Below, one piece after another: positions 6,372 to 14,937 of a DNA stretch of 64,000 nt. This DNA is from Jiangella alkaliphila. Lineage in GTDB: Bacteria; Actinomycetota; Actinomycetes; Jiangellales; Jiangellaceae. The position numbers were made by a program, and so were the translations under genes. Numbering within the stretch: position 1 is the stretch's first letter; each line of letters opens with the position of its first letter. Location: the NCBI RefSeq assembly GCF_900105925.1, contig NZ_LT629791.1:4062001-4126000 (forward strand), read 5' to 3'. Below the pieces are notes generated by a model. It was not told the DNA's origin. It saw only the letters and a program-made list of their open reading frames with translations, and ran no database searches.

Positions 6372-7808
6372 GGCCGCGGCGATCGGGGCCAGCGCGCGGA
6401 CGTCGTCGGGCGAGGCGAGGTCCTGGACGGCGACGAAGATCGTGCCGACGCCGCGGGCGAACAGCTCGTGGTACCGCTCGGCCGTCTGCTCCGGCGTGGC
6501 GGCGTGGTGCTTGCGGGCGTACGCGGCCGCCGTCGCGTTGCCGCGGGCCTGCTCGACCCGCCGCCAGACGTCGTCGCGGTCGCGGCCGACGATCGGCAGG
6601 TCGAGGACGGTGACGGCGACGTCGCGGCCGGTGCGGTCGCGATGCTTCTCGAAGACCGCCAGCCGCTCGTCGAAGCCGTCGTCGGTGCGCAGGTTGCAGG
6701 CGTCGCCCAGCTCGGCGGCGATGCGCAGCGACCGGTCGCCGGACCCGCCCACGATGATCTCCGGCCGGCCGGCGGGCCGCGGGTAGGACGTCGTCTCCGG
6801 CAGCTCGACCCGGGTGCCGGAGTACGCCTTGGTGCCCGACGCCCACAGCGCGCGGATGAGCTCGACGGCGCGTTCCAGCTCGTCCAGCCGCTCCTTCGGG
6901 CCGGGGAAGGCCAGCCCGTGCACGTCGTGCTCGCGGGCGAACCAGCCGGCGCCGATGCCGACGAACGCCCGCCCGCCGCTCAGCACGTCCAGCGTGGCGA
7001 CCGCCTTCGCGATGATGCCGCCCGGACGGAACGTCACCGGCGTGCACAGCGGGCCGAGCCGCAGCCCGGTGCCGAGGCCGGCCAGCATGCCGAGCGTCGT
7101 GAACGACTCCGGGATCGGGTCCCAAGCGCGCCCGACCTGCGGGATCTGGATCAGGTGGTCCATCAGCGCCAGGCCCGCGAAGCCCGCCTCGTCGGCGGCC
7201 AGCGCGATCTCCTTGAGCCAGCCGGCCGGGTCGTTGCCCCACGGGAAGCGGGAGACCTGCAGGATCACCCGGCGGTCACTCGTCTCCGCGCCGGCTGTCG
7301 CCGGGCTCGGTGCGGCTGCTTCGGCGGGCGGGGCGTCGTCGCGGATCGTCACGACGAGGTCCCAGCCCTCGCCGTCCAGCTCGGCCCCGACCTGGCTCGC
7401 GCGGCGCAGCTGACCGACCAGAGCCGGCGCCGGGACCGGCCGGTCTCGGGCGGCGTTGCGGGCCCTGCACAGCTCGGCGGGCGTGTCGAACACGACGGCG
7501 ACGGCGGGCAGCCCGGCGTCGCGGGCGACGGCCAGGTAGCCGCGGCGGCGCTCGGCGTCGAGCCCCAGCGTGTCGACGACGACGGTCAGCCCGCGGCCGG
7601 CGCGAGCGGCGACGATCCGGTCCAGCAGCGCGAACGCGTCGTCGGTCGCGTCGAGGTCGTGCCGGCCGCTGCCGACCACGCCGCGCAGGTCGTCGGACGA
7701 GACGATCTCCTGCGCCCGGTAGCGGGCCCGCGCCCAGACCGACTTGCCCGCGCCGGAGGCGCCGACCAGCACCACCAGCGCCGGGTCCGGGATCGGCTGC
7801 GTCGTCAC
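6366..7808 (-). CDS. P-loop kinase fused to F420-type LLM-class oxidoreductase
   Basis: 480 aa with two domains. Residues 1-165 are an AAA_33/polynucleotide-kinase-like fold: Walker A GASGAGKS (about residues 16-23), then IVSSDDLRG and a TVVVDTLGL strand. Residues 180-480 form a luciferase-like TIM barrel, with VILQVSRFPWG, LALMDHL, LRLGPLCTPV and GIGAGWF as expected in F420-dependent LLM-class oxidoreductases. An Ala/Pro linker of about 20 residues joins them. The reaction and substrate are unknown. The gene is monocistronic, facing the SGNH gene. An artefactual fusion is unlikely because the frame is open and codon use is uniform. Confidence 0.85.
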   Translation of the reverse strand: MTTQPIPDPALVVLVGASGAGKSVWARARYRAQEIVSSDDLRGVVGSGRHDLDATDDAFALLDRIVAARAGRGLTVVVDTLGLDAERRRGYLAVARDAGLPAVAVVFDTPAELCRARNAARDRPVPAPALVGQLRRASQVGAELDGEGWDLVVTIRDDAPPAEAAAPSPATAGAETSDRRVILQVSRFPWGNDPAGWLKEIALAADEAGFAGLALMDHLIQIPQVGRAWDPIPESFTTLGMLAGLGTGLRLGPLCTPVTFRPGGIIAKAVATLDVLSGGRAFVGIGAGWFAREHDVHGLAFPGPKERLDELERAVELIRALWASGTKAYSGTRVELPETTSYPRPAGRPEIIVGGSGDRSLRIAAELGDACNLRTDDGFDERLAVFEKHRDRTGRDVAVTVLDLPIVGRDRDDVWRRVEQARGNATAAAYARKHHAATPEQTAERYHELFARGVGTIFVAVQDLASPDDVRALAPIAAAS

Positions 7809-9142
7809 GGGCTCAGGCTAGCTGGCCCCGCGCGCCCCGTCAGTCGTCGTCGTGCCCGGCGACGCCGCGCTTCCAGTAGCCGGTCCCGTGCGCGTCGACC
7901 TCGCCGCGCCGCCAGCTCCGCAGCGGCTTGACGTCGCCCGCCTCGCCGGCCGCGAACAGGAAGGTCCGGCCGGGCCGCGTCACGAGGTCGTCGACGGTCG
8001 CGGCGAGCGCCGACCCCGTCGCCGCGCGGACCAGCGGGTGCACCGGCCGCCGGCGGCGCCGTTAGCGCAGGTCGTCGAGGCCGCAGGTGGGCATCGCGAT
8101 CCAGCCCTCGACGCGGGCCGTCTCGGCCAGTTCCGTCACGACGGCGGCACCGCCGGACCACTCCACGGTCGCGACGGCGGTCTTGTCCGGCTCGGCACTC
8201 AGGTCTACCCCGACGGTGCGCATGCTCATCCGCCCAGACAGCTCTCGGCGGGGCGACGTCAGTGGGCAGGGCGGTGTCGAACGGCGGGATGTCCGTCGTG
8301 ACGTGCCAGACCGAGGTGACGGCCATGCCCTCCGGGATCGGTTCGCCGTCCGCCGCGGCCCGGCTGGCCGCCGCGGCGACCTCGGAGTGGTCGATCTCCA
8401 GCCGGAACGTAGTGCCGCTGGTCGGCAGCAGGACCCGGGCCGGCGACTCCATGCCGTCCATCGCCTCGAGGACGGCCGGGTTGTTGGCGAGGTCACTCGA
8501 CAGCTGCATCCCCAGTCCGGCGGGCGCGGTGAACTCGTACCAGGTCGCGCCGTCGGGCTCGATGCCGTCCAGGGCGGGCTCACCGGCCAGGCGGAGCACC
8601 TCGAACGGCTCGATGAGCAGGCCGTCACCCGCGGCGAGGTCGAGGCCGAGCCCTCCGGACCCCGCTGTCGTCGTCATGTCGACCCACGCCGCCCCGCACG
8701 TCTCCGCCGACGTCCCGTTCCACATGAGCATGGTGGTGTCGGTCGTGATGAAACGGAGCGACTCGTCCCCGGTCATCTCCCCGTCCGAGAGCAGCCCGGC
8801 ATCGGGGAACTCGAGGGTCACCTCGACGTAGCGGGCGTCGAGGTCGAACTGGGACGTCTCCTCGACGAGCGTCGCCCGCTCGGGACCGGAGACCACCTCG
8901 TCGACCTTCTCGTAGCGACCGCGGGTCGCGGCCAGGAACGTCTCGACGTTCTCCCACGGTACGGCGTCCGCGGCGGTGGCCCCGGGCAGCGTCGCCGAGG
9001 CCTGCGCCGTCACGTCGTCGTCGGTGGCGGCGGGCATGGGCGCTCGGCCGCACCCGGTGGCGAGCACCACGAGGACGGCGAGACCGAGCCCGGCACGGGC
9101 CGTCACCCGCGGTGTCACGTATGTTCGACGTTCGGCTGTCAC
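7805..9142 (-). CDS. lipoprotein, probably truncated at its 3' end
   Basis: A GTG start at 9142 gives 445 aa; later GTGs at 9118 and 9106 are possible. A lipobox (VLATGCG) follows the signal peptide at about residue 31. The exported part up to about residue 300 is paralogous to the lipoprotein at 14002-14937: both have PW(E/D)(N/D)V, R-G-x-Y-x-K, EFDLDA-type and C-G-x-x-WVD blocks, and PFD near the end. After the PFDTALP motif (about base 8240) the paralogue's C-terminus with its Cys is missing. The frame instead runs in a wrong phase through the DUF429 and SIP remnants as an Arg-rich tail. Family and function not recognised. Confidence 0.6.
   Translation of the reverse strand: MTAERRTYVTPRVTARAGLGLAVLVVLATGCGRAPMPAATDDDVTAQASATLPGATAADAVPWENVETFLAATRGRYEKVDEVVSGPERATLVEETSQFDLDARYVEVTLEFPDAGLLSDGEMTGDESLRFITTDTTMLMWNGTSAETCGAAWVDMTTTAGSGGLGLDLAAGDGLLIEPFEVLRLAGEPALDGIEPDGATWYEFTAPAGLGMQLSSDLANNPAVLEAMDGMESPARVLLPTSGTTFRLEIDHSEVAAAASRAAADGEPIPEGMAVTSVWHVTTDIPPFDTALPTDVAPPRAVWADEHAHRRGRPECRAGQDRRRDRGVVRRCRRRDGTGRDGPRRGLDRDAHLRPRRPALTAPPAAGAPAGPRGDGVGARRDRRRPRDAARPDLPVRGRRGGRRQAAAELAARRGRRARDRLLEARRRRARRRLTGRAGPASLSP
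7840..8043 (-). pseudogene. remnant: C-terminal end of a siderophore-interacting protein
   Basis: A 67-residue open stretch contains FLFAAGEAGDVKPLR and then GYWKRG, both typical of the C-terminal NAD(P)H-binding end of siderophore-interacting (SIP/ViuB-type) ferric reductases. The FAD-binding N-terminal two thirds is missing, and the helix between the two motifs is shortened. Upstream in the same frame is a TAA and then a fragment of an unrelated family (DUF429). It overlaps, in another frame, the read-through tail of the lipoprotein gene. Most likely a deletion scar. Confidence 0.5.
8062..8223 (-). pseudogene. remnant: N-terminal end of a DUF429 protein
   Basis: 53 codons from an ATG. The opening RTVGVDLSAEPDKTAVATVE is the first beta-strand and Asp motif of DUF429 predicted nucleases, which are normally more than 200 aa. 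After about 30 recognisable residues the similarity stops, and a TAA closes the frame. In the same frame, beyond the TAA, lies the SIP remnant. The fragment starts where similarity of the neighbouring lipoprotein to its paralogue ends (about 8240), which marks a recombination junction. Confidence 0.45.
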
Positions 9143-9196: not shown

Positions 9197-9868
9197 CTAG
9201 GGCTGGTCGAGGAGGCCGTGCTCGTGGGCGAAGACGACGATCTGGACGCGGTCGCGCAGGGTCAGCTTGCGCAGGATCGCGCCCACGTGCGTCTTCACCG
9301 TCGACTCGCTGGCGAAGACCAGGCCGGCGATCTCGGTGTTGGACAGGCCGCGCGCCACCGCGGTGAACACTTCGCGCTCCTTGTCCGTCAGCGACTGGTA
9401 AGCGGCCGGCACCGATGAACGGGACCGGAACTGGCCGTCCAGCAGCGTCGCGAGGTCCTGCGGCGCCAGCACCGCGTTGCCCGCGTACACCGTGCGGATC
9501 GCGTCGCGCAGCTGCAGGGGAGTGGTGTCCTTGAGCAGGAACCCACTGGCGCCGTACCGGATCGCCGTCGCCGCGCGGTCGTCGAGGTTGAAGGTCGTCA
9601 GGACGACGACGCGCACCGGCCGCTCCCGCCGCGCCACCCGGTCGGGCAGGAAGAGCTGCCGGGTCGCCTCGACGCCGTCCATGTCGGGCATCCGGATGTC
9701 CATGAGGACGACGTCGGGGGCGAGCTCGTCGACCAGGCGGACGGCCTCGAGCCCGTCGCCGGCCGAGCCGACGACCGTCATGCCGTCCTGGGCGTCGACG
9801 ATGACGCGGACGCCCTCGCGGAACAGCTCCTGGTCGTCGACCAGGAGCACCCGGATGTCAGCGGTCAT
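9197..9868 (-). CDS. NarL/FixJ-type response regulator
   Basis: 223 aa. The receiver domain is at residues 5-120, with acidic pocket DD at 11-12, phosphoacceptor Asp57 in VVLMDIRMPDMDG and Lys in GFLLKDT. A LuxR-type HTH occupies about 155-215 (LTDKEREVFTAVARGLSNTE, then STVKTHVGAILRKL). It overlaps the sensor kinase gene by 4 bp (ATGA), so they form a co-translated two-component system. It is the last gene of a run that begins with the vanX-like gene. Target genes are not evident; the cell-wall genes upstream are candidates by position only. Confidence 0.93.
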   Translation of the reverse strand: MTADIRVLLVDDQELFREGVRVIVDAQDGMTVVGSAGDGLEAVRLVDELAPDVVLMDIRMPDMDGVEATRQLFLPDRVARRERPVRVVVLTTFNLDDRAATAIRYGASGFLLKDTTPLQLRDAIRTVYAGNAVLAPQDLATLLDGQFRSRSSVPAAYQSLTDKEREVFTAVARGLSNTEIAGLVFASESTVKTHVGAILRKLTLRDRVQIVVFAHEHGLLDQP

Positions 9869-11109
9869 GCGCCGCCCGCCCGCACCGGCACCCAGGCGGT
9901 CGCGGTGAACGTCGCACCGTCACCCTCGTCGCGGCGGCGGACGTCGAGGCGGCCGCCGACGGACTCCAGCCGGCGGCGCATGCCGTCCAGCCCGGCGCCG
10001 CCGGGGGCCGCCGCGAACGGCGACGGCGCGACGACGTTGCGGACTTCGATGCGCAGCTCGCCATCCCAGTGCCGCTCGACCTGGACGGGGGAGTCGCGGC
10101 GGCCGTGCTTGATCGCGTTGGTGAGCATCTCCTGCAGGACGCGGAACGCGACGACCTCCAGCTCGGGCGGCAGCGGCCGCGGCGTCCCGATCTCCGTCGA
10201 CACGACCTCGTGCCCGCTGGCGCGCACGCCGTCGACCAGGGTGTCGAGGCCGGCCGGCTGCGCGGACGGCTGCTGGGTGTCGGCCAGCACCTGCCGGACG
10301 TCGCGCAGCGAGGTCCGCGCCGACGTCGCGATCTTCGCCATGGTCTCCTTCATCGCCTGCGGGTCGGTGTCGTCGAGGTACTGGCCTGACTCGGCCTGCG
10401 CCAGGATCACCGCCAGCGAGTGTCCCACCACATCGTGCACGTCGTTGGCCAGCCGCGCCTGGTCTTCGCGCAGCCGGGCGATCTCGCGGGCCTGCTCGGT
10501 CTCGTGGACGGCGCGCGCGGCGTCCTCCTCGGCGGCCTGCTGCGACTCCTTCGACCGGCGGGCGCGGTCGCCGAACCGCAGCGCCAGCCCGACCAGCCAC
10601 GGCGCGCCGAGCGTCGCCATCCCCATGACGGCGGCGGTGACCTGCCACGTCGTGCTGAGGTCGCGGATGGTGTCGACGACGCTCGCGTTGCCGGCGAGGT
10701 CGGCCAGCCCGCCGAGCCCGCGCGAGTTGACGATGACGGTGATGATCATCGCCGCGACCGGGATCGACAGCGCGCTCAGCCACACCGTCGCCGTGCTGCC
10801 CCAGCGCGCCGTACCGAACGCCACCGCGGCGATCGCCACCTGCACGAGCATGAGGTCGACGCCGGCCAGCAGCTGCAGCCCGCACACCGCCCAGACCAGC
10901 GCGAGCGCGCCGGCCGGCAGCCGGCGGCTCAGCCCGACGGCGGCGGCCGTGCCGACCGCGACGAAGGCCAGCAGGACCCGCGACTCCGGCACCGACCCCG
11001 TCGCCGCCGCCTCGTACAGCCCGATGACCGCGACGACCGCCGCCGCGACGATGTCGGGGACCCAGGCCCGCCAGTCGGAGGTCATGGGCCATGGAACCAC
11101 GCTGGTCAT
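9865..11109 (-). CDS. sensor histidine kinase, HisKA_3 type
   Basis: 414 aa. The N-terminal half has about five to six hydrophobic helices with short loops, i.e. an intramembrane-type sensor. A linker helix precedes the dimerisation motif NDVHDVVGHSLAVI with the phosphorylated His at about residue 228. The HATPase_c domain shows the N box (EMLTNAIKHG) and a Gly-rich GGAGLDGMRRRLE. It pairs with the downstream NarL-type regulator. The start at 11109 gives a 4-bp overlap with the D-Ala ligase stop; an ATG eight codons later (11085) is equally plausible. This HK/RR class differs from VanS/VanR, so involvement in glycopeptide sensing is not implied. Confidence 0.92.
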   Translation of the reverse strand: MTSVVPWPMTSDWRAWVPDIVAAAVVAVIGLYEAAATGSVPESRVLLAFVAVGTAAAVGLSRRLPAGALALVWAVCGLQLLAGVDLMLVQVAIAAVAFGTARWGSTATVWLSALSIPVAAMIITVIVNSRGLGGLADLAGNASVVDTIRDLSTTWQVTAAVMGMATLGAPWLVGLALRFGDRARRSKESQQAAEEDAARAVHETEQAREIARLREDQARLANDVHDVVGHSLAVILAQAESGQYLDDTDPQAMKETMAKIATSARTSLRDVRQVLADTQQPSAQPAGLDTLVDGVRASGHEVVSTEIGTPRPLPPELEVVAFRVLQEMLTNAIKHGRRDSPVQVERHWDGELRIEVRNVVAPSPFAAAPGGAGLDGMRRRLESVGGRLDVRRRDEGDGATFTATAWVPVRAGGA

Positions 11110-12050
11110 CCGAGCACGTCGCGGACGAGCAGGTCGAGCAGCTCGGCGTAGGAGACGCCGGCCGCGGCGAACATCTTCGGCACCTGCGACTGCTCGGTGA
11201 ACCCGGGCATCGTGTTGACCTCGTTGAGCACCGGCCCGTCCGCGGTCAGGAAGAAGTCGATCCGCGCGACACCGGCGCAGCCGAGCGCGTCGAACATCGC
11301 GACGGCGGCGTCCTCCAGCCCCTTGCGCTCGGCGTCGGCCAGTTCAGCGGGGACGCGGAAGTCGGCGCCGCCGCCGTACTTGGTGTCGAAGTCGAACAGC
11401 CCGTCGACGACGATCTCCAGCGCGGGCGCGACGGTGCGCGTCCCGTCCGGCCGCCCGAGCACGGCGACATCGATCTCGCGGCCGGCGACGACGTCCTCGA
11501 CGAGGACGCGGCGGCCGAGCGCGAACGCCTCGTCCAGCGCGGGCCCGAGGTCGCCGGCCGCGCTGGCGAGCGAGACGCCCTGGCTCGACCCCGCGGCGAC
11601 CGGCTTGACGACGACCGGATGGGTCCAGCGGTAGCCGGGCGCCGTCGACGGGGTGAGCAGCAGGCCGGGCGCCGTGGCGATCCCGAGGTCGGCCGCGACC
11701 AGCTTCGTCGCCCACTTGTCCATCGCCAGCGCGCCGGCCAGCACGCCGGACCCGACGTACGGCACGCCGGCCAGTTCGCACAGCGCGGCCAGCGTGCCGT
11801 CCTCGCCGCGCGGCCCGTGCAGGACGGGGACGGCGACGTCGCAGGTCCGCAGCACCTGGATCGCGTCGGCGACGTCGACGGGGCAGCCGTCGGCGCCGCG
11901 CCGCCAGCCGCCGTCGCGGTCGATGGTCAGCCGGACGACGACGTACCCGGCGTCCTCCAGCGCGCCGGCGACGGCGGCCGCCGAGGCCAGCGACACGTCG
12001 TGCTCGCAGTTCCGCCCGCCGCCGATCACCGCCACCCGGGCCGCCGTCAT
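11106..12050 (-). CDS. ddl: D-alanine--D-alanine ligase family protein
   Basis: ATP-grasp ligase of about 314 aa. It joins D-Ala to a second D-Ala or related D-substrate for peptidoglycan precursors in the cytosol. Visible blocks are GGGRNCEHDVSLASA (N-terminal), VLHGPRGEDGTLA, PVVVKPVAAGSSQGVSLA (ATP-grasp lysine) and ARIDFFLT...LNEVNTMPGFTEQS (metal and substrate loop). The omega-loop reads FDFDTKY; Phe where canonical Ddl has Tyr (YDYxAKY) recalls D-Ala-D-Ser ligases such as VanC, but this is only a hint. ATG 12050 was chosen for the GGAG six bases upstream. It is downstream of alr and coupled to the kinase gene. Confidence 0.9.
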   Translation of the reverse strand: MTAARVAVIGGGRNCEHDVSLASAAAVAGALEDAGYVVVRLTIDRDGGWRRGADGCPVDVADAIQVLRTCDVAVPVLHGPRGEDGTLAALCELAGVPYVGSGVLAGALAMDKWATKLVAADLGIATAPGLLLTPSTAPGYRWTHPVVVKPVAAGSSQGVSLASAAGDLGPALDEAFALGRRVLVEDVVAGREIDVAVLGRPDGTRTVAPALEIVVDGLFDFDTKYGGGADFRVPAELADAERKGLEDAAVAMFDALGCAGVARIDFFLTADGPVLNEVNTMPGFTEQSQVPKMFAAAGVSYAELLDLLVRDVLG

Positions 12051-13270
12051 CGGATGCTCCGGGGCACTGTCGCGGTGCTTTTGCAATGAGCACCAATAGG
12101 CACCGGTGCGTATAGGTGCTCATTGCAAGCGGTCTCCCGGGCGATCCGGCGGCCGATGCCGGTGACGATCTCGTGCTCGATCGTCCCGGCCCAGGCCGCC
12201 CAGTCCGCGGTCGTCGGCTCGCCGTCGTCGCCGGGGCCGAACACCGTCGCGATCTCGCCGGGCGGCACCACGTCGTCGCCTAGGTCGATGACCGCCTGGT
12301 CCATCGAGAGCAGCCCGACGAGCGGCCGGCGCCGGCCCCTGACCAGCACCTCGGCCCGTCCGGACGCGGAACGTGGCAGTCCGTCGGCGTAGCCGAGCGG
12401 CAGCAGCCCCAGGTGCGTCGTGGCGGGCGCCGTCCACGCGTGCCCGTACCCGACCGGCGTCCCGGCGCGGATCCGGCGGACCGAGACGACCGGGGCGGTC
12501 AGCGTCAGCGCGGGCCGCAGCCGCACCGTCCGGGACGGGTCGATGCCGGCCAGCCCGGCGCCGATCCGGACCAGCGTGTGGTGCGTGCGCGGGTCGGTGA
12601 GCGTGGCGGCGGTCGCGGCGAGGTGCCGGTGCGCGGGCCGCAGCCCGAGCGCGCGCGTGACCTCGACGCCCCAGGCGAACCGGGTCCGGCCGATCGCGTT
12701 GGACCTGTCGGCGGGGACGTCCGCGCAGGCCAGGTGCCCCATGACGCCGTCGACGCGGAGCTGGCCGCGCTGCTCGGCGAGCCGGGCCGCGCTGCACAGC
12801 CGCGCCCACTCGGCCGGTGGGGCGCCGTCGCGGGCCAGCCCGGTGTCGAGGTGCAGGTGTACGCGAGCGGGCCGCCCGGCGCCCGGCGCCGCCGCGATGA
12901 CGGCCTCCAGGTGCTCGCGGCTCGGCACGGCCAGGTCGACGCCCGCGGCGACGGCGGCCGCGAAGTCCGCGTCGACCGGGTTCAGCCAGCTCAGGATCGG
13001 CGCGCCGATCCCGGCCGCGCGCAGCTCCAGCGCCTCGTCGACGCTGGTGACGCCGAGCCGCGTGGCGCCCGCCGCGAGTGCCGTCCGGGCGACGTCCGCG
13101 GCGCCGTGCCCGAACCCGTCCGCCTTGACGACCGCCATCAGGGCCGAGCCGGGCGCGTGGGCCGCGATCGTCCGCGTGTTGGCGGCGACGGCCGCGAGGT
13201 CGGCGGTGAGTGTGGGGCGGCTGGTCACGGCGGCGGTCCGCGGGCGCGCGTCGATCGTCGCCGCGCTCAT
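12047..13270 (-). CDS. alr: alanine racemase family protein (PLP, fold III)
   Basis: 407 aa from ATG 13270, which overlaps the vanX-like stop (ATGA). It interconverts L- and D-alanine, or possibly serine. The PLP-binding Lys49 lies in AVVKADGFGHG. The C-terminal beta-domain has GYGHAWTAP, LPLGYADGLPR with the catalytic region, and SMDQAVIDLG. Alr domains normally end near GIGRRIARE; here about 22 extra residues follow because the frame runs through a 48-bp palindrome and overlaps the start of ddl. Position between a D-Ala-D-Ala dipeptidase and a ligase suggests it supplies the D-amino acid for the ligase. Confidence 0.9.
   Translation of the reverse strand: MSAATIDARPRTAAVTSRPTLTADLAAVAANTRTIAAHAPGSALMAVVKADGFGHGAADVARTALAAGATRLGVTSVDEALELRAAGIGAPILSWLNPVDADFAAAVAAGVDLAVPSREHLEAVIAAAPGAGRPARVHLHLDTGLARDGAPPAEWARLCSAARLAEQRGQLRVDGVMGHLACADVPADRSNAIGRTRFAWGVEVTRALGLRPAHRHLAATAATLTDPRTHHTLVRIGAGLAGIDPSRTVRLRPALTLTAPVVSVRRIRAGTPVGYGHAWTAPATTHLGLLPLGYADGLPRSASGRAEVLVRGRRRPLVGLLSMDQAVIDLGDDVVPPGEIATVFGPGDDGEPTTADWAAWAGTIEHEIVTGIGRRIARETACNEHLYAPVPIGAHCKSTATVPRSIR
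12081..12128. repeat. 48-bp near-perfect palindrome between alr and ddl
   Basis: Two 24-base arms with no loop. The outer 14 bases (TTGCAATGAGCACC and its complement) are perfect and the centre is CACCGGTG. Only two positions per arm mismatch. It lies within the last codons of the alr frame, 31 bp upstream of the ddl start, and so is translated as an atypical C-terminal tail. It could be an operator, an RNA hairpin insulating ddl, or an inserted repetitive palindrome. Confidence 0.8.
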
Positions 13271-13908
13271 GCCGCCACCAGGTGCGCGCCGATCGGCCCG
13301 TAGAGCGCGGCCGGCGCGCCGATCGTCAGCGCCCAGTAGCGGTCGCCGTAGCTCCAGTGCCACCACTCCGTCGGGTAGTTCACCAGCCCGACCGAGCCGA
13401 GCACGTCGGCGAGCAGAGCGCGGTACACGCGCGCCTCCGGGCTGACGTTCGTGGCGGCGAAGTAGCAGGCGCCGTCGCTCTGCTCAGGTGTGGCGTCGAT
13501 CGGGGTGCCGAGGTCCAGCTCCCGCCCGTCGCGGCCGACCAGCGTGAGGTCGACCGCCGCGCCCGCGACGTGCGGCGCGACCCCGACGGGTGCGACGAAC
13601 CGGCTGGTCAGACGTTCGAGCTCGGCGAGGTCGTGGACGAGGGAGGGGTCGACGGCGGACAGCTCGGCGGCGTAGCGGGCGATGATCGCGCGCTGGTCGG
13701 CGATGCTGCGGTGCCCCTCGACCACCCGCAGCTCGACGCCGTCGGGCAGCCGGTCGCGGGCCAGGAGCAGCCGCTGGGCGAGCGACACCCGCACCCGCGC
13801 GCGGGCCGAGCCGAACGGTGCGGTGAGCTCGACCAGCGGCTCGCCCTCGTCCTCGACAGGGATCGCGGCGACTCGCGGGTCGGACAGGAGGATCGTCATG
13901 TCCATCAC
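13267..13908 (-). CDS. VanX/VanY-like D-Ala-D-Ala dipeptidase (peptidase M15)
   Basis: 213 aa, with GTG 13908 or ATG 13905 as start. The zinc-site motif appears as APHVAGAAVD (HxxGxAxD), and the catalytic Glu plus third zinc ligand as EWWHWSYGDRYW, as in M15D/VanX dipeptidases. An upstream VEGHRSIADQ segment matches the usual GYRS-type substrate loop. VanX-type enzymes hydrolyse D-Ala-D-Ala, either to remove the glycopeptide target or to recycle peptidoglycan fragments. No signal peptide is seen, consistent with a cytosolic VanX role. It is first in the dipeptidase-racemase-ligase set, co-translated with alr. Confidence 0.85.
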   Translation of the reverse strand: MMDMTILLSDPRVAAIPVEDEGEPLVELTAPFGSARARVRVSLAQRLLLARDRLPDGVELRVVEGHRSIADQRAIIARYAAELSAVDPSLVHDLAELERLTSRFVAPVGVAPHVAGAAVDLTLVGRDGRELDLGTPIDATPEQSDGACYFAATNVSPEARVYRALLADVLGSVGLVNYPTEWWHWSYGDRYWALTIGAPAALYGPIGAHLVAA

Positions 13909-14001
13909 GCTAGGAATCGCGGCCGGTACCCGGCCTCCACCTGAGGTGCCGGACCGCTGTCCCCGAGGACGAGATCCCTGGCCCCGAGGTCCGGGGGCTG
14001 G

Positions 14002-14937
14002 TCAAGCCTCCCTGTCCTGGTCGATGCAGGTAGCGTCGGCGATCTCTGGGGGCAGGCGGATGTCGAACGGTCGCTCGTCGGAGACGGGGACGATCCAGGT
14101 GACCGTCATGCCGTCACCCTCTGGGATGTCTTCTCCTGCGGCCGCCTCCAGTACATCGGTGAGGTCGATGGTCACCTGCAGCGGCCCGCTGTCTGCCGGC
14201 AGCAGGACGTCGGCGATGGTCTCGATGTCCGCCATGGCGGACATGGCGTCCGGTGCGTCGAGGAAGCCGCCCTGCGGGCTGAGCCGAGCCGCCGGGATCG
14301 CCACTTCGTAGTGGCTGCCGTCTGGTGAGGTGGCCACGTGGCGTGGCTCGCCGCTCACGTGGTTCAGGACTCCGAGCGGCTCCGCCACCCGGAGGTCGGT
14401 CGCCTGGAAAGCCGGTGCGAGCACGGAATCGGACGAGAAGTCGGTCACATCGACCCAGTCCGTCCCACATGCATCGCGGAGGGCTGCGTTCCGCATGATC
14501 GTCACCGAGTCCGTGTAGACGAACTGGAGCATGCCGTTGCCGAGGCCGCCGGGCACAGAGTCCTCAGGGACCAGTCCTGCCGGGATGGTGAGGGTACGGT
14601 CGAGATAGGAAGCGTCGAGGTCGAACTCGACCGACTCCCGGATGGTGGCCGTGACGCCGCCGACTCTGATCTCAGTGAACTTTCGGTATGAACCGCGACG
14701 GGTCGCGAGGTGCGTCGCCACGTCGTCCCACGGCACGACGGACTGCGTCTGTGTGACGGCCGGGGGAGACGTGCTCGACTCGTCGGAAGATGCCTCGCCG
14801 TCGGTCGCCGAGTCCTCCTGGCCACTGCCACTGCCACAGGCGCTGGCGGCGACGGCCACTGCGACGAGTGCGGCGAGACCGAGCAGGAGCCGGGCGGATC
14901 TGCCCGGTATGCGGCTGATCACCTGGTTTGCGATCAC
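14002..14937 (-). CDS. lipoprotein of unrecognised family
   Basis: 311 aa. The signal peptide with lipobox AVAASACGSG (Cys at about 34) is followed by an Asp/Ser-rich linker. The exported domain is paralogous to the lipoprotein at 7805-9142: VVPWDDVATHLATRRGSYRK, SVEFDLDASYLDRTL, DACGTDWVDV and a final PFDIRLPPEIADATC. Two conserved Cys (in ACGTDW and at the end) may form a disulphide. No family was recognised. An IS1380 element is inserted 13 bp upstream of its start codon, with its CTTAG site at 14946-14950, so the native promoter is probably separated from the gene. Confidence 0.75.
   Translation of the reverse strand: MIANQVISRIPGRSARLLLGLAALVAVAVAASACGSGSGQEDSATDGEASSDESSTSPPAVTQTQSVVPWDDVATHLATRRGSYRKFTEIRVGGVTATIRESVEFDLDASYLDRTLTIPAGLVPEDSVPGGLGNGMLQFVYTDSVTIMRNAALRDACGTDWVDVTDFSSDSVLAPAFQATDLRVAEPLGVLNHVSGEPRHVATSPDGSHYEVAIPAARLSPQGGFLDAPDAMSAMADIETIADVLLPADSGPLQVTIDLTDVLEAAAGEDIPEGDGMTVTWIVPVSDERPFDIRLPPEIADATCIDQDREA

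Follow-up and report, generated by a model that had tools for sequence, protein, structure and literature searches.

A five-gene operon in Jiangella alkaliphila

The 64,000-nucleotide (nt) window analysed here (Jiangella alkaliphila, RefSeq assembly GCF_900105925.1, contig NZ_LT629791.1, positions 4,062,001 to 4,126,000) carries an operon predicted to encode a VanX-like M15 peptidase, an Alr-type racemase, a D-Ala-D-X ligase and a two-component system. We propose, with a rough probability of 0.58, that the operon is an inducible module for remodelling peptidoglycan precursors, which resembles the D-Ala-D-Ser van operons in its working and belongs to a separate lineage. Judged from its sequence, it probably works like a D-Ala-D-Ser van operon, and by descent it falls outside that family.

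All five open reading frames (ORFs) lie on the minus strand of the window, in the order M15-alr-ddl-kinase-regulator. The M15 gene (13267-13899; Pfam Peptidase_M15, 51 bits, cut-off 27) starts at a conserved ATG; the longest ORF opens at a GTG at 13908. It is followed by alr (12047-13270), encoding a pyridoxal phosphate-type racemase (Pfam Ala_racemase_N/C) with His366 at the position of the housekeeping Tyr, and by ddl (11106-12050), encoding a predicted ATP-grasp D-Ala-D-X ligase (Pfam Dala_Dala_lig_C) with F219, Y225 and Q289. The last two genes, assigned by Pfam, code for a HisKA_3 sensor kinase with five hydrophobic segments (9865-11109) and a NarL/LuxR-type response regulator with Response_reg and GerE domains (9197-9868). 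ATGA stop/start overlaps were found at all four gene junctions; an earlier reading of the sequence alone (the original prediction) had named three of them and missed the one between alr and ddl. The operon is real and not a product of chance, because 10 further Jiangella genomes have these five genes in identical order. The original prediction was right that the kinase and regulator belong to a class other than VanR/VanS, as both Pfam and NCBIfam models show, and that there is no vanH among the operon genes; it did not foresee the vanH-vanA-vanX locus present elsewhere in the genome.

According to the mechanism that we propose, the kinase and the NarL-type regulator would sense envelope stress or a wall-targeting antibiotic, and the regulator would activate transcription from a conserved candidate operator upstream of the M15 gene. 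The racemase, altered at a position where VanT is also altered, would supply another D-amino acid in place of D-Ala or in addition to it, D-Ser being the likeliest. The ligase, with Phe and Gln in its acceptor site, would join this amino acid to D-Ala, the cytoplasmic VanX-like peptidase would clear the competing D-Ala-D-Ala, and MurF would build pentapeptides ending in D-Ala-D-X, with X being probably D-Ser.

Active-site signature of the ligase and the racemase

The omega-loop of the ligase reads LFDFDTKY, and its first Phe (F219) corresponds to position 210 of E. coli DdlB, as counted on the E. coli DdlB sequence. This Phe was found together with a Gln at DdlB position 282 and a His in the racemase column that we take to be that of Tyr354 of Geobacillus Alr in 51 of 51 alr-linked pairs (11 from Jiangella, 37 from other chromosomal loci and 3 from plasmids). 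Actinobacterial housekeeping Ddl proteins have Tyr at DdlB 210 (15/15) and Met (14) or Ile (1) at DdlB 282, and housekeeping Alr proteins have Tyr in the racemase column in 13 of 14 cases, the one divergent row reading Glu. The operon enzymes therefore differ from ordinary housekeeping ones, with F219, Q289 and H366 instead of Tyr, a non-polar residue and Tyr. At the same time the catalytic Glu16 and Tyr225 (DdlB 15 and 216) are retained in 29 of 29 aligned relatives, and the predicted structure of the ligase is good (predicted local distance difference test score, pLDDT, of 91.5). As the 51 pairs were gathered with a single ligase as the similarity query and belong to one clade, the counts show constancy of the signature and not its repeated origin.

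In the three D-Ser ligase references (VanC1, VanN and a Paenibacillus VanG-like protein) the combination is Phe plus Arg (3/3). Measured by this yardstick, which is our own and drawn from those three references, the operon ligase has the Phe at DdlB 210, and Gln replaces the Arg at DdlB 282. VanT-N and VanT-C read Asn in the racemase column and the Paenibacillus vanG-type racemase reads Gln. The original prediction had compared the omega-loop Phe with that of D-Ala-D-Ser ligases. This holds for the first Phe, which is found in VanC, VanN and VanG, although it is not specific to D-Ser ligases. The second Phe is uninformative and was rejected as a marker: its position varies among the relatives (Y, T, L or A), and M. 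tuberculosis Ddl reads FYDF.

Ancestry of the two enzymes

In the ligase tree the 29 signature ligases form one group with 100/99 support, recovered in 100% of 200 bootstrap trees, and a 100/100 branch separates them, together with housekeeping Ddl, from VanA/B/O and VanC/N/G. The housekeeping Ddl rows do not form one group once the signature ligases are excluded. This tree has a midpoint root only, with long branches for L003 and E. coli DdlB. In the racemase tree a 100/99 branch divides VanT from the actinobacterial racemases, and the 32 signature rows, one group with 92/95 support (not starred), fall on the actinobacterial side; the VanT rows are long and flagged for long branches. On both trees we reject kinship with VanC by descent. 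Since they place the two enzymes with actinobacterial stock, the resemblance to VanC and VanT is best read as convergence, with ligase and racemase probably assembled from actinobacterial housekeeping stock. The VanX/VanT/VanC parallel of the original prediction stands as a functional parallel between gene sets; the ligase phylogeny against Ddl, VanA and VanC, which it had proposed as a check, came out on the side of actinobacterial housekeeping Ddl.

The trees also bear on the view that we are dealing with a true VanC/VanG-family operon acquired from Bacillota. The gene set does resemble vanC/vanN and the Phe is common to both, but such an origin is highly improbable given that the ligases lie across the 100/100 branch from VanC/N/G and VanA, that the racemases group with actinobacterial Alr across the 100/99 branch (with the long-branch warnings for VanT), and that the regulator is not VanR.

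The AT3 gene and its apparent loss

AT3 (PF01757) is the Pfam family of the N-terminal half of VanT, as checked on VanT-N, and passages of PMC12423673 describe this domain as important for high-level resistance. An intact AT3 gene was found between ddl and the kinase gene in one (L053) of the 10 other Jiangella loci; the other nine lack it at that place. A conserved stretch from the 3′ part of AT3, GTGGTTCCAT, is present in 9 of the 10 loci, counting L053, and the whole 64-kb window contains it a single time, at the ddl/kinase junction. There, at the start of the kinase gene, lies a putative AT3 scar, CGTGGTTCCATG (11091-11102, minus strand), the same bases being found inside the intact AT3 gene of L053 and, in the other Jiangella, at the corresponding junction. 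The window operon appears to have lost an AT3 gene once present between ddl and the kinase gene. With a scar of only about 12 bases in the window and in L046, the suggestion of loss is weaker for these two than for the other Jiangella. In its ancestral form the operon probably encoded an AT3 membrane protein too, comparable to that of VanT.

Distribution and gene neighbourhoods

The operon was found in 11 of the 12 Jiangella genomes searched; the survey of genus and class revealed no such ligase in the twelfth (G007). M15 relatives outside the genus were of little help in tracing it further: in 20 loci fetched, drawn from the 22 non-window genomes matching M15 in a 396-genome phylum sample, alr and ddl were not seen nearby, and the ligase was therefore taken as the distribution probe. 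There was no strong M15 match in 10 other genomes of the family, one of which (G018) has an alr-ddl pair adjoining VanR-O/VanS-O-like genes. Among the best 80 matches listed, close relatives come from Actinopolymorpha, Nocardioides, Allorhizocola, Lentzea, Marmoricola, Actinacidiphila, Nakamurella, Actinotalea and Actinoalloteichus. In a class sample of 393 genomes, 39 matched the ligase at E 1e-97 and 32 were retained; the other seven (all f4/g9 in our labelling, with frames of about 370 amino acids and E values of 1e-97 to 1e-100) were excluded as likely housekeeping Ddl before any check of the signature. At all 20 class-sample loci outside the family alr adjoins ddl.

The 37 non-Jiangella chromosomal loci comprise 16 from the genome-contig scan and 21 from sampled genomes, two sets that may overlap; L112, apparently on the same contig as L049, was not counted. 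M15 precedes alr in 20 of them, AT3 follows ddl in 10, a HisKA_3/NarL-type pair is adjacent in 22, and an OmpR-type VanR/VanS-like pair lies beside alr-ddl in nine. For four of the five OmpR-type regulators scored, VanR-O was the best family (424-442 bits against an NCBIfam cut-off of 505, the next family reaching about 170), and the regulator beside the genome's own vanHAX scores 461 bits to VanR-O; for the fifth (L127) VanR-O was not the best family. The VanR-O-linked alr-ddl loci are L230, L245, L246 and L247. At the VanRS-linked loci, the gene before alr encodes a VanY-domain protein in the two of two examined. On three Streptomyces plasmids Alr and Ddl form one reading frame.

There is a broader reading, which we hold as possible but tentative: a second, actinobacterial invention of D-Ala-D-X remodelling from the phylum's own Alr and Ddl. 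Its marks would be the co-evolved Phe/Gln/His set and a modular history of Alr-Ddl fusion, a split-off AT3 and the replacement of VanRS by a NarL-type system that brought an operator of its own, X being D-Ser or a D-amino acid new in this role.

With regard to the fusions themselves, the frames are those of L105, L110 and L111 (Streptomyces linear plasmids) and of L243, with L280 annotated alike. AT3 is present at L110 and L243, and a GNAT gene lies downstream on the plasmids.

A candidate operator upstream of the M15 gene

A putative tandem operator made up of two dyad-like boxes, TCCTCGGGGACAGCGGTCCGGCACCTCAGGTGGAGG (13934-13969, minus strand), precedes the ATG of the M15 gene by about 50-70 bases. 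All 11 of the 11 Jiangella carry its 18-base core, CGGCACCTCAGGTGGAGG, with no more than one mismatch. When upstream regions of non-Jiangella M15-bearing loci were scored against this Jiangella core, with up to 300 control windows per locus, 14-18 of the 18 positions matched in 13 of 20, and at those 13 loci no control window scored as well. Of the seven misses, L231, L241 and L242 match a longer block better than every control window, L240 does not, and at L121, L122 and L237 the NarL system is not adjacent to the operon. The core was found at 12 of 16 loci with an adjacent NarL system vs. none of three without (Fisher p 0.036; 19 scorable loci, two of the three NarL-lacking ones being from Lentzea, and L119 excluded as its contig ends in ddl). 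Searched at up to three mismatches, the full tandem element gave one match in the genome. We infer that the operon's own regulator binds this element. A possible -10 element, TAGCGT (13907-13912, minus strand), seen in the Jiangella alignment 7 bases before the conserved ATG, may belong to a leaderless promoter.

The M15 peptidase

No hydrophobic segment was found in the M15 protein, which is predicted to be cytoplasmic. It belongs to the VanX-type M15 family and has the zinc and catalytic residues: with catalytic positions matched by a VanX residue numbering that we assume to be correct, the HxxGxAxD and EWWH motifs (H110, D117, E178, H181) and R64 are invariant or nearly so in 11 aligned proteins. 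It scores 30.6 bits with the NCBIfam VanX model (cut-off 320), to which the genome's own VanX gives 383, and the model closest to it in the family-model search, though weakly so, is that of the D-Ala-D-Ala dipeptidase PRK10178. Its predicted structure was too poor for use (mean pLDDT 62).

An intracellular peptidase with this weak affinity for a dipeptidase model would also suit D-amino-acid or muropeptide recycling, in which, as the wall turns over or the cells differentiate, M15 salvages dipeptides and precursors are made anew by the racemase and the ligase. We regard this as quite unlikely. Recycling gives no account of AT3, of the VanRS-linked loci or of the changed residues in the racemase and the ligase acceptor site, and a salvage route has no need of a second Alr and Ddl.

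Other copies in the genome and arguments against remodelling

The genome (7.72 Mb, a single contig) has four strong Dala_Dala_lig_C places. The window ligase is one of them; the others are a housekeeping Ddl of the Tyr type (L001), a VanA-type ligase and one more Ddl-like protein. A separate Tyr-type housekeeping Alr (L009) lies elsewhere, and a second, Tyr-type Alr is present in eight of eight other cluster-bearing genomes checked. In the original prediction the idea of a special module was to be dropped if its ligase and racemase were the only copies in the genome and strictly D-Ala-specific; because Tyr-type housekeeping Ddl and Alr exist elsewhere, they are not the only copies, and the expected second ddl and alr were both found.

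The main rival explanation starts from such duplication. D-cycloserine inhibits both Alr and Ddl, and the second copies might be inhibitor-insensitive duplicates, induced by envelope stress, that make ordinary D-Ala-D-Ala while resisting D-cycloserine or a similar compound. The racemase His column is that of M. tuberculosis Alr Tyr364, as counted on the alignment, and passages of PMC5700341 report that the Y364D change raises the half-maximal inhibitory concentration of D-cycloserine about 50-fold; an integron-borne Ddl can confer D-cycloserine resistance, according to passages of PMC7691350. These points, like the dual inhibition, count for the rival. So do the general NCBIfam models, which call both operon enzymes Ala-specific: the racemase passes the alanine racemase model with 249 bits (cut-off 168) and the ligase the D-alanine--D-alanine ligase model with 276 bits (cut-off 245.65). 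VanN and its VanT, however, likewise pass both models. The product of such duplicates would be degraded by a D-Ala-D-Ala peptidase encoded alongside them, and the VanR-O/VanS-O-like regulators, VanY-domain genes and AT3 of related loci are glycopeptide-type features. We consider this explanation rather unlikely, if less so than recycling.

Several further observations weigh, as do those general model matches, against the remodelling function that we prefer. The activities of the operon enzymes are predicted only. The Phe at DdlB 210 is also found in five of five D-Lac ligases, with Arg, and without Gln in 2 of 13 other Ddl-like ligases; the ligase Gln differs from the Arg of VanC/N/G and the racemase His from the Asn of VanT. 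The whole signature may be one ancestral event. The NCBIfam VanT, D-Ser-ligase and VanX models score far below their cut-offs, the ligase reaching 223 bits with D_ala_D_ser (cut-off 520). No AT3 gene separates ddl from the kinase gene in the window operon, 17 of the 37 non-Jiangella loci have no M15 match, and 4 of the 16 loci with the NarL system have no strong operator core. Finally, the genome already holds a vanH-vanA-vanX locus (L060) with adjoining VanS-O- and VanR-O-like genes. At this locus the cut-offs of the VanH, VanX and generic D-Ala-D-Lac ligase models are exceeded, and VanR-O and VanS-O are the best matches, below cut-off.

Relation to known systems

The operon has much in common with vanC/vanN (and vanE, vanG, vanL) operons, which likewise combine a peptidase, a racemase and a ligase with a two-component system. 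AT3 goes with the racemase in both, fused in VanT and as a separate gene in relatives of the operon; the ligase Phe at DdlB 210 is common, and the racemase is altered at the Tyr354 column in both. By contrast, the operon ligase and racemase are actinobacterial and have Gln, not Arg, and His, not Asn. The regulators are NarL/HisKA_3 and not OmpR-type VanRS, the gene order is M15-alr-ddl-(AT3)-kinase-regulator, and M15 is closer to VanX than to VanXY. None of three marks of a D-Ala-D-Ser van operon was found: the ligase is outside the VanC/G/N lineage, the regulators are not VanR/VanS, and the racemase is not VanT and has no AT3 domain or partner in the window.

The vanHAX (D-Ala-D-Lac) systems follow the same remodelling logic and use a VanX-like enzyme. 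The operon differs from them in having no vanH and in its ligase, which keeps a KY-type omega-loop with the Tyr at DdlB 216 (Y225) that is absent from D-Lac ligases.

Sets of vanRSY with an alanine/aspartate racemase and Ddl are described in passages of PMC8698665 from Allonocardiopsis, Murinocardiopsis and, rarely, Geodermatophilales, where the authors already suggest a D-Ala-D-Ser-like role. Compared by description, these sets are probably of the same alr-ddl kind as our VanR-O-linked loci. Absent from the passages are the NarL-regulated M15-alr-ddl form, the Phe/Gln/His signature, any link to AT3 and the operator; the passage on Jiangellales mentions vanHAX-type sets only. The same passages present the pdx operon of Micromonosporales as a proposed alternative route of precursor remodelling; it likewise contains a Ddl-like ligase, a VanX-like dipeptidase and regulators, but it has a PALP-type serine/threonine dehydratase instead of an Alr-type racemase, and its regulators are VanRS-like. 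A limited search of open-licence PMC literature, which leaves novelty unproven, found no paper describing the signature, an Alr-Ddl fusion or the operon with its NarL-type regulation. The original prediction is thus supported in part; it had left out the Gln and His, AT3, the operator, the VanR-O/VanS-O-linked versions, the fusions and the vanHAX locus.

If the remodelling reading is true, non-Ala precursor termini would have arisen independently in the phylum thought to be a source of glycopeptide resistance, and the operon would reveal which active-site changes were needed twice. With three named residues, two small soluble enzymes and one operator, the system can be tested directly. It also offers a natural case for the role of the VanT AT3 domain, which here has a gene of its own that only some of the operons contain.

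Other features of the locus

A 48-bp palindromic repeat (12081-12128) lies in frame in the C-terminal coding tail of alr, near the alr/ddl junction. It is near-perfect (TTGCAATGAGCACC...GGTGCTCATTGCAA), and its half-sites occur in the genome 45 times in forward and 46 times in reverse orientation; 41 are paired, 15 of the pairs being exactly 48 bp and others carrying central inserts. We rejected a terminator hairpin, as no T run follows and the repeat sits within the coding tail of alr. The 13-base core was not found in the open-licence literature searched. Apparently decayed copies occupy the same place in the alr tail in some other Jiangella, and the housekeeping alr (L009, genome about 7628924-7629158) has a copy near its 5′ end, perhaps by coincidence.

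Stand-alone M15 relatives (L062-L084, L085-L104) occur in other actinobacteria, several of them with small genomes.

Upstream of the operon the window contains a small lipoprotein-like ORF and an insertion sequence-type DDE transposase (PF13701; 15086-16492), inserted between phoD and the lipoprotein and M15 genes. In the 10 other Jiangella loci fetched, tblastn detected no DDE transposase in the interval from phoD to M15. Two lipoprotein-like ORFs (7805-9142 and 14002-14937), mutually related and with no Pfam match, flank the operon, and several Jiangella carry relatives of them downstream of the regulator gene.

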